Assembly (NCBI GenBank): GCA_030295235.1
Contig: AP026140.1
Location: 372,001 to 436,000 of the forward strand
Direction: 5' to 3'
Length of the DNA: 64,000 nt
DNA from: Fistulifera solaris
Lineage: Eukaryota; Bacillariophyta; Bacillariophyceae; Naviculales; Stauroneidaceae
Shown one piece after another: positions 37,204 through 43,143 of this stretch. Below the pieces are notes generated by a model. The model ran no database searches. It saw only the letters and a program-made list of their open reading frames with translations, and was not told the origin of the DNA. Position numbers and translations under genes: made by a program. Positions within the stretch are counted from its first letter, which is position 1. The number at the start of each line of letters is the position of its first letter.

Positions 37204-37375
37204 TCTAGCTTAGTAGACGGTAGACAAGAAACGGAAGATGCCGGAGACAAGAATTTTAGTCTCTAACCTCTCTAGACTCTTTAGAGTCTCCATCTAGCTT
37301 AGCAGACGGTAGACAAGAAACGGAAGATGTTGGAGACAAGACTAAATCTTTCTATAGACTCTATAGAGTCTCCAA
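37204..37375. repeat. two direct copies of an ~89-bp unit
   Basis: Both copies begin TCTAGCTTAG(T/C)AGACGG (37204 and 37293) and share GTAGACAAGAAACGGAAGAT then GGAGACAAGA. They end with a small inverted repeat CTCTAGACTCTTTAGAGTCTC in copy 1 and ATAGACTCTATAGAGTCTC in copy 2. They lie in the spacer before the first selenoprotein gene. Confidence 0.8.
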
Positions 37376-37715: not shown

Positions 37716-38437
37716 ATGCCTCATCTGTTTTGTCCGGGGAAGACAAAACAAGTGGCGCCGCCTGATGTCGGCCTAATGAGCGCCTCTGTTCAAAAGTTGG
37801 CGGAAGATGGAAAACTCGACCATATTTACAACATCCCTTTAATGGAACTTAATTGCCAGTTCGGCCTTGTTCGGAATCGTACCGATGAACCAACTCCTCT
37901 TCAACAGGCTGTCAAGCAGGAGCGTGCAAGGCAACAAGCAAAAGTAACATTGGTATTCGCAGTTCGGCGCCCTGGGTGAGCTTCGTGCCGCGAGCACGGC
38001 CAGCAATTGGCTAAGCTCGTGGCAGAAGAACCGTCGGCGGCCCTTCTCGCCACGGTCAAAGAAACAGGCGCTGACGACGAAGCCCTCCCTCGACTTTTTA
38101 CGAAAAGTACTTTGCGAGGCATGTTATTTATCAAGACGAGAAGTGGAAGTTGTATCATGCCATGGGAGGCAGAAAGATCGGCACGGGCAAGTTGGTAACT
38201 GGACTACTAAGATCTGTAAGAAGGCATCGAGCAAACAATATCGAGGCGAGCCATAACACCACCACTGTGGATACATGGATGCTGGGTGGTGTTCTGATAT
38301 TCGATAAGAAAGGAAATTTAATGCATGTTGTCGAAGAGGATTATGGCGTGGCCCTTGATATTCAAGCGATAAAGATGATAATTGATGAAATCAAGAAAAA
38401 TCAAGGTACCAAGGACACTAAGAATACAGCATCATAA
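37716..38437 (+). CDS. thioredoxin-fold selenoprotein, copy 1 (PRX-like2 / AhpC-TSA_2 type), damaged
   Basis: Starts MPHLFCPGKTKQVAPP. An in-frame TGA at 37977-37979 lies in VTLVFAVRRPG-U-ASCREHGQQLAKL. The Cys three residues later and the Arg-Glu after it are the peroxiredoxin-like CxxC-R-E site with Sec in the first position. Reading through is supported by copy 2, which conserves both the site and the sequence on each side. Downstream, LATVKETGADDEAL is followed by two one-base insertions relative to copy 2 (C run 38087-38089, T5 38095-38099), after which YHAMGGRKIGTGKLVTGL and GGVLIFDKKGNLMHVVEEDY continue to the stop at 38437. A SECIS-like element lies about 190 bp downstream. Either an assembly error or a decaying duplicate. 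Confidence 0.8.
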
Positions 38438-39645
38438 TCAGCAGAGGATGGCAGTGATAGTATTGATGGCAAGAGGGCGGGAAGTTTATAGCCGTCATGA
38501 TTGCATGTACATGCATTGTGAATGATATTCATCTGCTTACAAGCGATGGATTGACAAACGCGCAATTATGCAGTTGTTCTGTAAGAGGATGAAACAAAAA
38601 GTCAAGAAGACCATGAAAATTGTGAATGACGGTTGTTCACACCCTCATCGGTAGAGCGACCTGATCTACATATTGTAATACGAAATGACTAGTCGTCTAT
38701 ATTGTTTATCATCATTGACCATTTTGTGATCCTCGCTCGTTCATTCTGTTATCATGCATTGAAGCTACATCGGGAAAAAAGAAGGCTGTAGTGGACGACG
38801 ACAGATGTCTAAGAGCATAAAACAAAACATTGTGTTCCTGTGTATAGCGAAGCTCGCCCGAGAGGGTAAATATAGCTATGGAAGACCGAGATGCTTGTTG
38901 TTTCGGGTTAGTACCTTCCCACCGCATCACCTCATTGCTCTTGATCTCAGTCTCAGTGCACTTTTATATCGACGTCGAACAGCTCAAAACGGTAAAAGGC
39001 CAATGCAGAAGCTAGTGACGACGCGCAATCACCGATCATCATCCGTCGATGACCTCCTCACTTCTCACTTAACCGCACTCGTCAGCAGATCGGTGACGAT
39101 TTCAGAAATGGTTGATGGTGAATGGTGAATGATAAGAGTGAACGATGAATGACGAAAAATAATAATGATAAGAACGAAATAACGAAGTTGAAGTTACTCG
39201 TTACTTGAACGTTGCAAGACTTAATTGGACCTAATTAGATTAGCTAATAGTGTAGTCTCGTTATTCTTTGCTTCTTTTGCCAGATGTCATATGACCATTA
39301 GATCAGTACACCGGAGTTTCCCAACAGTTATCAAAGTACAATACAGATTACTGTCCATTTACCTTTTCTGCTTCATGCAACGAACAGCAAGAGCAATGGG
39401 CAAAGTGGGCAAACGCGCAACACGCAACACGCAGCACATCATGAAGAATCAATCATGGTTGGACGTTGTGCTGGTGATGCATGATGCCTGAGTCATCCCT
39501 TCAGCTTCCAACTTCCAATTTCCAACGACATCTTTCCATCCACTGACTTTCACTTTCACCCATTTGCTCAAAGATAAAAACAAGGTTGGAATCAAAGCCT
39601 TGAGCCTTGTTTTTGCAAGCCGCTTGCAGCCATCAAAGTTCCATC
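38438..39645. other. spacer between the two selenoprotein genes
   Basis: Apart from the SECIS-like element, this 1.2-kb spacer holds no convincing gene. At 39108-39170 it has drifting repeats of GATGGTTGATGGTGAATGG type and further GAATGA-rich motifs. Confidence 0.45.
38611..38680 (+). promoter_or_regulatory. SECIS-like element, selenoprotein copy 1
   Basis: In the 3' region of the first selenoprotein: TGTGAATGACGGTT (ATGA core at 38626-38629) and, after a possible loop, CGACCTGAT (TGAT at 38662-38665). GGTTG can pair with CGACC, and AATTGT upstream can pair with ACATATT downstream with one bulge. The core and spacing match the element of copy 2 (TGTGAATGATGG...ACCTGAT). The apical conserved A/C pair could not be placed with certainty. 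Confidence 0.65.
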
Positions 39646-40419
39646 ATGCCAGGTCTCGTTTCTCCGAAGAAAACGAAGCAGGTAGTGGAGGCACCATTCG
39701 ATTCGAGTCTCACAAATGCCTCTGTCAAAAAATTGGCTGAAGACGGAAAGCTCGACCACATTTACAACATTCCTTTACAGGAACTCAATTGCCAGTTCGG
39801 TATTGTTCGAAACCGAACGGACGAACAAGTTCCTCTCCAAAAAGTGGTAAGACGAGAGCGTTCGAGGCAGCAATCCAAGGTGACGTTGGTGTTTGCCGTA
39901 CGACGTCCTGGATGATCTGGGTGCCGCGAGCACGGCCGACAGCTGGCTGAGCTCGTGGCGGAAGATTCGTCCGCGGCCCTACTCGCGACGGTTAAGGAGA
40001 CAGGAGTGGACGACAAAGCCCTCCTCGACTTTTACGAGAAGTATTTTGCGCGGCATGCCATATACAAGGACGAGAAGTGGAAGCTGTATCATGCCATGGG
40101 AGGCAGAAAGATCAGTGTCGGCAAGTTAGTCACTGGACTGATGAAGTCTTTTCGACGGCACCGAGAAAAGAAAGTCGAGGCAAGTCCTAACATTACTGCC
40201 GGAGATGGATGGATGCAGGGTGGCGTCCTTATATTCGATAGACGAGGAAATCTTAGACATTTAATCGAAGAGGATTATGGCGAGCCCCTTGATACACAAG
40301 CAATCAAGGACGTGATAGAAGAAATCAAGCGAAATCAAACTATCAGGGACACTGATGATTCGGGATCGCAATTCGCAGAGGACAGCAGTGAGAGCCTCCA
40401 GGAAACCGAGTCATCTTAA
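39646..40419 (+). CDS. thioredoxin-fold selenoprotein, copy 2 (PRX-like2 / AhpC-TSA_2 type), intact
   Basis: 257 residues when TGA 39913-39915 is read as selenocysteine. The same frame is open from ATG 39646 to TAA 40417-40419. The active site is VTLVFAVRRPG-U-SGCREHGRQL (U-x-x-C-R-E), in the place where peroxiredoxin-like-2/AhpC-TSA_2 proteins have Cys. The C-terminal thioredoxin-fold half reads FYEKYFARHAIYKDEKWKLY, MGGRKISVGKLVTGLMK, then GGVLIFDRRGNLRHLIEEDY. N-terminal LAEDGKLDHIYNIPLQELNC is shared with copy 1. A SECIS-like hairpin lies 67-137 bases after the stop. Likely a redox enzyme; substrate unknown. A standard gene finder would cut it at 39915. Confidence 0.9.
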
Positions 40420-40485
40420 TTAACAGGTCCAACTCAACCGAAGCGGGCCTTTGGGTAGACTAGCACGAAGAGAAAGATTGGCATG

Positions 40486-40556
40486 GTCATGGAACTGTGA
40501 ATGATGGTTTCTCTAGCCTTTTTGGTTAAAAACCTGATGAGTATTTGTTCCATGAC
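40486..40556 (+). promoter_or_regulatory. SECIS-like element, selenoprotein copy 2
   Basis: A perfect 10-bp inverted repeat, GTCATGGAAC (40486-40495) and GTTCCATGAC (40547-40556), forms the lower helix. Inside it, GTGAATGATGG (ATGA at 40501-40504) faces CCTGAT (TGAT at 40535-40538), the arrangement of a SECIS quartet with tandem G-A pairs. The upper helix can form from GGTTT and AAACC with a loop of about 18 bases. The position, 67 bases after the stop, is right for a 3' UTR SECIS. Confidence 0.8.
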
Positions 40557-40785: not shown

Positions 40786-43143
40786 TTAGAGATCATCATC
40801 ATCAATGTCGTCATCATCGCCGTCGTTCTCGTAAAAGAAGTAATTTCCGCTAGCTTTTTGTTCTTGATCCTTTTGTGATCCTCGCTTATTGATTCTGTGG
40901 GTAAAAGATAAGAGCACGTTGTCAGTGACGCAACATTTCAAATGAATAGGCTACCCAAGAGCCACAGAAATAACGCTGGTAGGAAATTAAAACATAAGAC
41001 TTGAAGCTTTCATAGCCAACACTAAAACAGCGCTCGCGTTTGCGAAAAGGCGTAAAGAATTGTTTCTCGTCATTCCAGTCAAACACATACAAGCCACCGA
41101 CTAAAGACTTACCGAGGACGGAAGTTGACAGGATCACGACGAAATGTAACCTGCAAGCTCTTAAGAAACGTGTTCATACCGGTGAGAAGCGACTGCGGAG
41201 AGGTAGCGGTTGCTTCCACACCAGGCTTTCCCTCGTAGACAACTACTCGATCAGCCAAATACGTCGCCATGATAAAATCGTGTTCCACGACAAAGGCTGT
41301 CTTCTTGCTATGCATGATGAAACGCTTAATAACTTTGGCGCAATTGACGCGCTGCTCCGAATCCAGATACGCGCTGGGTTCATCGATGAGATACACATCG
41401 GCTGGTTGACCTAGAGCCAAAACGATAGCAAGTCGTTGTAATTCACCGCCGGAAAGATTCTGGACACCGTTGTCGATGATGTTGTCAATTACCAACGGTT
41501 TCATCACATCAGATATGAACTGAGGGTGAATGTATGCATCTCGAACGCGTTTGTGAAGAAGTTGTCGAACCGTGCCCTGGAATTTAGGTGAAATTTTCTG
41601 TGGCTTGTAGCTAACATTCAGCTCCGGTACTCCAGCCAGCGACGCTTCGTAGTCGAGTCCCTCAGCTTCAAGCTGAACCTGCTCGTCACTCTTCAGCAAG
41701 CCTGCCAACATACGCACGAACGTCGTCTTTCCGGTTCCATTTTCTCCGAGAAGCACAATAATTTCAGAATCCGTGAATTCACCCTTTTGAACATGCAAGA
41801 TAAACTTCGAATCATCTCGCGATTGCGTTTTTGTCATGTCTGGATAAGAATAATTCTTCAAAATATCGTTCTTGTCGCTACCTGCTTCAGCGCGTTCCGA
41901 AACCTATTATAAATAAAACAAAGTTGTAGTCAGCAAACAAGAAAGTCATCGACCAAATACACCGCAACAATAGCTCCTACGTACCTTGAACGTCAGTGCA
42001 TGATCACGGAATCGCATATTCTCGGACTGAACAAAACCAGCCAAGAAGGCATTGATACCGTTGCGAACACTGTGGGGCATCGTCACTACACCATAACCAC
42101 CGGCTTGGCCGTACAGAATGCAGATATAATCACTGAGATAATCCAAAACCGCCAAATCGTGCTCCACGACCAATACATAACGCCGATCGGCTCCCGTGCC
42201 CTCCAAGATTTTGCGAATCATCGCGGCCGCCGTCAAACGCTGTTTCACATCGAGATAGGACGACGGCTCATCGAACATGTACACATCACTGACTTGCACA
42301 GCAACGGCAGCAATCGCAAATCGCTGCAACTCTCCACCACTCAACACACCGATCTGACGATCGACTAAATGTTCCAGTTCCGCTTCCTTCAACGCCCAGC
42401 CCAGCACGTCCCAACCTTCGGCTTCCGTGCGTTCATCCTTCGACTTGAGTACATCCATGACGGTGCCTTTGACAGCCCGGGGGATGTGATCTACGTACTG
42501 TGGCTTGATGGTGGCTTTCATGGTATCTTCCAAGATGCGGGTAAAGTAGTTTTGCAACTCACTGCCACGAAAGTACACCAAAATTTCTTCCCAATCCGGA
42601 GGTGTCTCGTATTTTCCCAAGTTGGGCTTCATTTTTCCCGCCAGAATTTTGAGTGCGGTCGACTTACCGATACCGTTGGTGCCGACCAAGCCGAGTACCT
42701 GGCCCGGACGAGGCATGGGAAGTCGATGCAGTTTGAATGAGTTGGGACCGTAACGGTGTGTCGTGTTTTTCTCGAGGTCTTTCGGGAGGTTGATGATATT
42801 AATAGCTTCGAACGGGCACTTTTTGACGCAAATACCACATCCTGAAAAAGTTGCAAAAAATAGGAAATGCAGGAATGGGCAAAATGGATGAGAAAACGTG
42901 TTGAAAGCGCAAAACGACGACGTTTAAATTTGTAAACGTACCGATGCAAAGGGGCTCCGAGATGAAAGCAATTTTACTCTTGGCGTCGACTTCGATGCAC
43001 ATTTTTCCTAATTTAACGACAGGACACGACTTTTTGCATTCCTGACCACACTTCTTGGGCTTGCATCTCTCGGCCCCGACGATGGCAATACGTGTCATCG
43101 TCTCTTCCTCCTTGCTGCTGGCGGCTTTCTTTTTCGGCGCCAT
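40786..43143 (-). CDS. ABCE1: ABC-type ribosome recycling factor ABCE1/RLI1
   Basis: Splits ribosomal subunits after termination and acts in initiation. Four exons: 43143-42942, 42841-41985, 41903-41113 and 40894-40786. The N-terminal iron-sulfur domain has [15 protein letters not shown] and [13 protein letters not shown] (the first intron splits the Gly before CGIC). ABC domain 1 has Walker [10 protein letters not shown], signature [12 protein letters not shown] and Walker [17 protein letters not shown] domain 2 has [22 protein letters not shown] and [13 protein letters not shown]. The C-terminal exon reads [20 protein letters not shown] and ends in a poly-Asp tail. All introns are GT-AG and phases fit. 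No frame damage; one of the best conserved genes here. Confidence 0.97.

Follow-up and report, generated by a model that had tools for sequence, protein, structure and literature searches.

A tandem pair of predicted selenoprotein U genes in the diatom Fistulifera solaris with an in-frame UGA very probably read as selenocysteine

Selenoprotein U (SELENOU) genes that carry selenocysteine (Sec) are already known from algae. Two SelU genes have been reported in T. pseudonana (PMC2375036), SELENOU belongs to the four most widespread families in Sec form across 36 algal genomes, and two adjacent SELENOU genes were found in E. huxleyi (PMC7539508). The main text of the algal survey (Jiang et al. 2020) mentions F. 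solaris once, for PDI_e. Here, we describe a tandem gene pair on the forward strand of a 64-kb window (the whole stretch of DNA analysed, 64,000 nucleotides of F. solaris contig AP026140.1). Judged from its sequence, the locus is very probably a tandem duplicate of a selenoprotein U (SELENOU / PRXL2-type, AhpC-TSA_2) gene in Fistulifera, whose in-frame UGA is read as selenocysteine. As in the SELENOU proteins of diatoms and other algae, Sec would replace the first Cys of the C-x-x-C in an AhpC-TSA_2 protein; what differs is that the pair occurs in Fistulifera, in both of its subgenomes, and that copy 1 has two SECIS-like elements. The side-by-side arrangement resembles that of the pair in Emiliania huxleyi, but that alga belongs to another phylum, and the Fistulifera pair is older than the union of the two subgenomes, with two of its four copies frame-shifted in the assembly. 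The sequence-only reading, an earlier reading of the letters, had called such a pair uncommon, a judgement not supported as worded: Sec SelU in diatoms and an adjacent algal SELENOU pair are already in print (PMC2375036, PMC7539508). The locus is a fresh member of a known family, and the doubled SECIS-like element is the feature worth testing.

The genome examined totals 51.7 Mb, divided among 61 contigs. It matches the allodiploid diatom F. solaris, for which allopolyploidy has been reported, the homoeologous chromosomes forming 42 pairs (PMC5935921). On the homoeologous contig C20, the block recurs in identical order with its own copies, B1 (copy 1) and B2 (copy 2), and the identity to the window is 85.5% for the upstream gene, 77.8% for copy 1, and 89.4% for copy 2 together with the downstream region. 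Within the window, copy 1 (A1) and copy 2 (A2) are 78% and 76% identical at the DNA level in two aligned blocks of 300 nt. B1 is an open reading frame except for its TGA, and the reading frame of B2 shifts early in the gene in the current assembly, in which A2 is the only open copy in the window and B1 the only one on C20. B1 and B2 are identical across 166 nt surrounding the TGA, which looks like gene conversion; because of this identity, the two are not independent and are counted once.

Table 1 Features of the SELENOU pair and its 3' regions, in positions of the window
Feature	Position	Strand	Detail
Copy 1 (A1), ATG to first non-TGA stop in its own frame	37716..38198	+	160 codons including TGA
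Sec-type TGA of copy 1	37977..37979	+	codon 88, VRRPG-U-AS-CRE
Frame-change stretch of copy 1	38081..38096	+	net +2 nt relative to the other three copies
Downstream part of copy 1, in another frame	38099..38437	+	ends with TAA 38435-38437
SECIS-like element 1 of copy 1	38520..38554	+	ATGA 38522-38525, GA 38553-38554
SECIS-like element 2 of copy 1	38624..38664	+	ATGA 38626-38629, GA 38663-38664; named in the sequence-only reading
Copy 2 (A2), predicted selenoprotein U coding region	39646..40419	+	257 residues, Sec at 90, stop TAA
Stretch of copy 2 matching the 84 nt omitted from the NCBI homoeolog model	39847..39930	+	84 nt; contains TGA and Cys93
Sec-type TGA of copy 2	39913..39915	+	codon 90, VRRPG-U-SG-CRE
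SECIS-like element of copy 2	40499..40537	+	ATGA 40501-40504, GA 40536-40537

The proposal of a PRXL2/AhpC-TSA_2-type protein with U-x-x-C was upheld. A2 matches PF13911 with 30.7 bits (cut-off 27) over residues 125-202, a match that begins downstream of the U-x-x-C, and the downstream part of copy 1 reaches 27.3 bits with the same model. The sole solved structure found by sequence was a prostamide/prostaglandin F synthase (PDB 9us9; E 0.00018, residues 75-220), whose RRFGCVVCR aligns with RRPG-U-SGCR, but it is distant, has Cys where the window pair has Sec, and does not imply a shared activity. The SelL-related model NCBIfam NF040769 covers residues 71-222 (E 5.8e-7) with 29.3 bits, short of its cut-off of 120. 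The SELENOL motif is U-x-x-U, in contrast to the U-x-x-C of the window pair, and both motif and context point to selenoprotein U. Elsewhere in the genome, Cys paralogues with RRPGCVLCRE lie on contigs C30 and C31, and another TGA-containing relative, with G-U-FYCRE, lies on C1 and C2. Among viral and prokaryotic sequences, an alignment-based search returned 20 and 4 pattern matches, respectively, none of which was confirmed.

Several lines of evidence support the reading of the TGA as a Sec codon. First, VRRPG-U-x-x-C-R-E-H-G surrounds the TGA in both A1 and A2, and A2 read with Sec gives 257 residues with a single TGA in the context VFAVRRPG-U-SG-CREHG. Second, the TGA takes the place of the first active-site Cys of the relatives, as had been proposed for both genes. 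The 129 relatives came from two protein searches (76 from one; 120 of 148 matches listed from the other), and among the matches listed 109 have a residue in the TGA column, which is Cys in 97, Trp in 12, and nothing else. We infer that the Trp residues are TGA codons translated under another code by the gene caller. Of the remaining 20, again among the matches listed, 7 start with M(L)CREHG directly after the site, as expected for a gene caller restarting after a TGA. The second Cys of the C-x-x-C is present in 115 of the 116 listed relatives with a residue at that position. Third, the TGA is kept in all four genome copies, and dN/dS is 0.07 before and 0.13 after it for A2/B2, 0.09 and 0.19 for A2/B1, and 0.20 and 0.23 for B1/B2; beyond its frame change, A1 gives 0.17 against B1 and 0.25 against A2. 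Past the TGA, the five comparisons range over 0.13-0.25 with the downstream part of A1 counted in its other frame only, which indicates that coding constraint persists beyond the TGA. The homology claimed on both sides of the TGA is present in both copies, but the downstream part of copy 1 lies in a different frame. As for the suggested selection for a Sec-dependent redox function, the retention of TGA in four copies and the purifying selection fit it without amounting to proof, and the copies on C20 are not independent.

In the current assembly, copy 2 is open and copy 1 is disrupted, so the earlier picture of two intact tandem genes has to be given up. Around 38081-38096, the spacing between A1 and A2 shifts from 1936 to 1934 nt; A1 runs into a stop of its own frame at 38196-38198, and what remains of the domain is encoded in a different frame that extends to 38437. 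The change may be a lesion that arose recently or an error in the sequence, yet the codons of copy 1 stayed under constraint until a short time ago. Rather than a young pseudogene, we lean slightly towards a sequence error or strain difference, with the gene intact in the living cell. The extra bases of A1 lie within or beside short homopolymer runs, the dN/dS of A1 past the change is that given above (0.17 and 0.25), and the record P0007 is open across the frame-change stretch and identical to A1 in the 112 residues that follow (112/112 over 38099-38437). Against this, P0007 reads through the TAA of copy 1 at 38435-38437 by a substitution and may represent another strain, and copy 1 is only 77.8% identical to its homoeolog compared with 85.5% and 89.4% for the flanks. 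P0007 is another Fistulifera-like record and comes from a different contig.

SECIS-like elements had been claimed for both 3' regions, and they are found there, together with an extra element of copy 1 at 38520-38554 that the sequence-only reading did not list. The cores are GTGAATGACGGTT...GACCTGAT at 38622-38665 in copy 1 and GTGAATGATGGTT...AACCTGAT at 40497-40538 in copy 2. The pattern GTGAATGAYGGTTN{10,36}ACYTGAT, which was derived from the window copies themselves, has three matches in the 51.7-Mb genome (A1, A2 and B1), all 3' of SelU copies, and a reversed-control pattern has none in the same 51.7 Mb; B2 carries GTGGATGA and hence does not match. A broader descriptor (G[AG]ATGA[CT] followed by a fixed-register helix of 5 bp or more and then by GA) was drawn up from the sequences 3' of SelT, GPx, SelM and the SelU copies with the elements in view, and so not blind. 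It matches twice in A1, once in A2, twice in B1 and once in B2, and its three matches in the 64-kb window, searched on both strands, are all in the 3' UTRs of the SelU pair. Random sequence of like composition gave 9 and 15 matches per 2 Mb, i.e. 0.002-0.004 per 500 nt. Among 11 control UTRs, the descriptor matched 6 (two SelT, two GPx, and SelM on C3 and C4 with two each) and found no match in the other 5 (SelM on C40 and C41, SPS2, and SelU on C1 and C2).

When homoeologs are compared, all 8 pairs of helix II are preserved in element 2 of copy 1 (3 of them changed), 6 of the 7 in element 1 (3 changed), and all 5 in copy 2 (none changed); in this comparison, no pair is altered on both sides yet still paired. 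Folding z-scores are -1.38 (element 2) and -0.89 (element 1) in A1, -2.44 in A2, -2.08 (element 2) and -0.51 (element 1) in B1, and -0.51 in B2, compared with +0.42 for SelT, -1.29 and -0.94 for SelM, and -0.31 for GPx; they do not stand out for every element and are not decisive. An energy-ranked SECIS scan gave no separation from background, with -13.3 for A1, -8.9 for A2, -10.5 for B1 and -8.5 for B2 against window percentiles of -14.5 (5%) and -6.5 (50%). In the first base-pair scan, the best scores were 6.6, 6.1, 11.1 and 6.1 against a background with a 95th percentile of 6.2 and a 99th of 7.7, and B1 alone stood out. Rfam, run with its gathering threshold and with E values as high as 10, reported no SECIS in the region of the SelU pair, but this silence is uninformative because Rfam was also blank at ten loci comprising GPx, SPS2, SelT, SelU on C1/C2, the C20 pair and two Rdx loci (SelM was not included). 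According to a published rule, the quartet is followed at 10-13 nt by an apical AA or CC (PMC2375036). Element 2 of copy 1 and the element of copy 2 each have a CC at 12 nt, which in the fold is paired completely or in part, and B2 has an AA at 10 nt; AA or CC at 10-13 nt is absent from element 1 of A1, both elements of B1, and the GPx and SelT of this genome.

Two SECIS elements in one single-Sec mRNA have rarely been reported. Ciona SelW1 and human Sep15 have two with a single Sec, the upstream one of Sep15 being reported as non-functional (PMC2874816), and multiple SECIS have been treated for selenoprotein P (PMC5133445); a search of the open-access literature by title and abstract gave no diatom report of two SECIS in a single-Sec gene. 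Copy 1 resembles SelW1 and Sep15 in having two elements in the 3' UTR for a single Sec, but those genes belong to other families and lineages, and there as well as here the extra element has no function or a putative one. On the evidence at hand, element 2 may well be the sole SECIS of copy 1, with element 1 a relic or a chance hairpin: element 1 loses one of its seven pairs in the homoeolog, it folds more weakly than element 2 in both A1 and B1 (-0.89 and -0.51 against -1.38 and -2.08), and human Sep15 is reported to have a non-functional upstream SECIS (PMC2874816). Against this, the descriptor finds both elements in both subgenomes, with the ATGA cores 104 nt apart in A1 and 107 nt apart in B1, where only 0.002-0.004 matches per 500 nt are expected, and SelM on C3 and C4 is likewise doubled, at distances of 192 and 206 nt. 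We put forward tentatively, as possible though short of probable, that some single-Sec mRNAs (SelU copy 1 and one SelM gene) have two working tandem SECIS, kept in both subgenomes, that tune or back up Sec insertion. If true, this arrangement, with its short helix II and relaxed apical motifs, would amount to a variant SECIS organisation in diatoms. The paired SECIS-like elements in single-Sec genes make the role of a second SECIS testable in an alga.

A check of the genome for the Sec machinery, which the sequence-only reading had called for, turned up tRNA-Sec, eEFSec, SBP2, SepSecS and SPS2. Six of 14 tRNA-Sec matches exceed the cut-off, and C27 and C29 each carry two genes side by side; SepSecS is on C9 and C10, eEFSec on C12 with corresponding matches on C11 (best PDB match 5izk, E 1.9e-79), SBP2 on C19 and C20 (best PDB match of the C20 protein 7zjw_B, E 1.3e-20), and SPS2, with Sec in KGUACK, on C16. 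PSTK-like matches on C30/C31 are below the cut-off. Further Sec genes encode GPx (ASKUGLT), SelT (CTSU) and SelM (CGGU, CSGU). Three candidates were set aside: SelB-model matches beside tRNA-Sec on C3/C4 translate as mitochondrial-type EF-Tu and the one on C9 as IF-2-like (both named by eye), and MsrA on C7 has a TGA in the match, but its active site is GGCFWG. With this machinery, SBP2 bound to the SECIS hairpin in the 3' UTR would bring eEFSec with Sec-tRNA-Sec to the ribosome, where the UGA would be decoded. By analogy with the family, the product would be a thioredoxin-fold protein whose Sec90 and Cys93 (U-x-x-C) form a selenenylsulfide cycle in thiol/peroxide chemistry.

The expectation that annotation would miss the Sec site was borne out. 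The NCBI F. solaris protein FisN_6Lh286 (P0004) matches the C20 gene in 227 of 227 aligned residues and lacks 28 residues that include the TGA. This model implies that the TGA lies inside an 84-nt intron, leaving a protein that has no redox motif and needs no Sec, and it might draw on the exact loss of 28 residues at the TGA stretch and on the GT start and AG end of the 84 nt in all four copies. We nevertheless consider it very improbable. No motif of the family is better conserved than the one inside the 84 nt, which all 109 relatives covering the site among the matches listed possess, and differences within them fall at third codon positions in 12 of 16 cases for A2/B1 and 16 of 23 for A1/A2, with a weaker share for A1/B1 (7 of 13). 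Taken together, the three comparisons indicate that the omitted 84 nt are coding sequence, and a public diatom annotation can be corrected in which the redox site of the protein was left out, apparently as an intron. A reading in which the TGA terminates translation and the four copies are either pseudogenes or short-protein genes is scarcely credible: the frame changes of copy 1 and the homoeologous copy 2 in the current assembly would suit it, but it is opposed by the constraint past the TGA in five comparisons (dN/dS 0.13-0.25), the complete Sec machinery of the genome, the SECIS-like elements 3' of all four copies, and the relatives with Cys at the TGA site.

With Sec decoding as the preferred reading, an allodiploid that holds four Sec copies, two of them frame-shifted, beside the Cys paralogue pair on C30/C31 offers a setting in which the retention of Sec can be compared with its replacement. 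In a quick tree of 113 rows (15 with Sec or Trp and 98 with Cys), the site changes state at least 8 times, and 4 of these changes are forced by well-supported branches.

On the contig homoeologous to that of the window, C20, the counterparts of the tandem selenoprotein U genes (B1 and B2, L020) are identical over 166 nt across the TGA. Since the tandem copies are diverged elsewhere, the sequence comparison suggests gene conversion between B1 and B2 around the TGA. In the window itself, the ORFs adjoining copy 2 resemble ABCE1/RLI1, and the portion nearest copy 2 is kept on C20. The direct repeat lies upstream of copy 1, together with a palindrome (AGACTC...GAGTCT).

Paired SECIS-like elements were also found in another selenoprotein gene of the genome, SelM, where they are separated by 192 nt (C3) and 206 nt (C4), and both elements of one gene are alike in sequence (TGCGAATGACAYAGC).

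Most of the other examined genes are on two homoeologous contigs, whereas a single contig was matched by the selD model for SPS2. SBP2 and GPx share contig C19 with the selenoprotein U pair, and the same arrangement is present on C20. For tRNA-Sec, one gene each is located on C3 and C4, and neighbouring pairs are located on C27 and C29.

Coordinates of the features in the window and on F. solaris contigs (C-numbers)
Feature	Location	Strand	Remark
SPS2	C16:721045-721888		selD model match
SBP2 and Sec-containing GPx	C19:145864-146133 and C19:169940-170275		~24 kb between them
SelM, Sec-containing, homoeologous pair	C3:2259842-2260069 (L060) and C4:2150486-2150713 (L061)		two SECIS-like elements each, 3' region
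ABCE1/RLI1-like ATPase ORFs	window 41109-43143	minus	identity read by eye
Direct repeat, 49 nt	window 37204-37374		94% identity, spacing 89 nt
tRNA-Sec gene pairs, adjacent	C27:330126-330416 and C29:316339-316634		two genes ~205-210 nt apart
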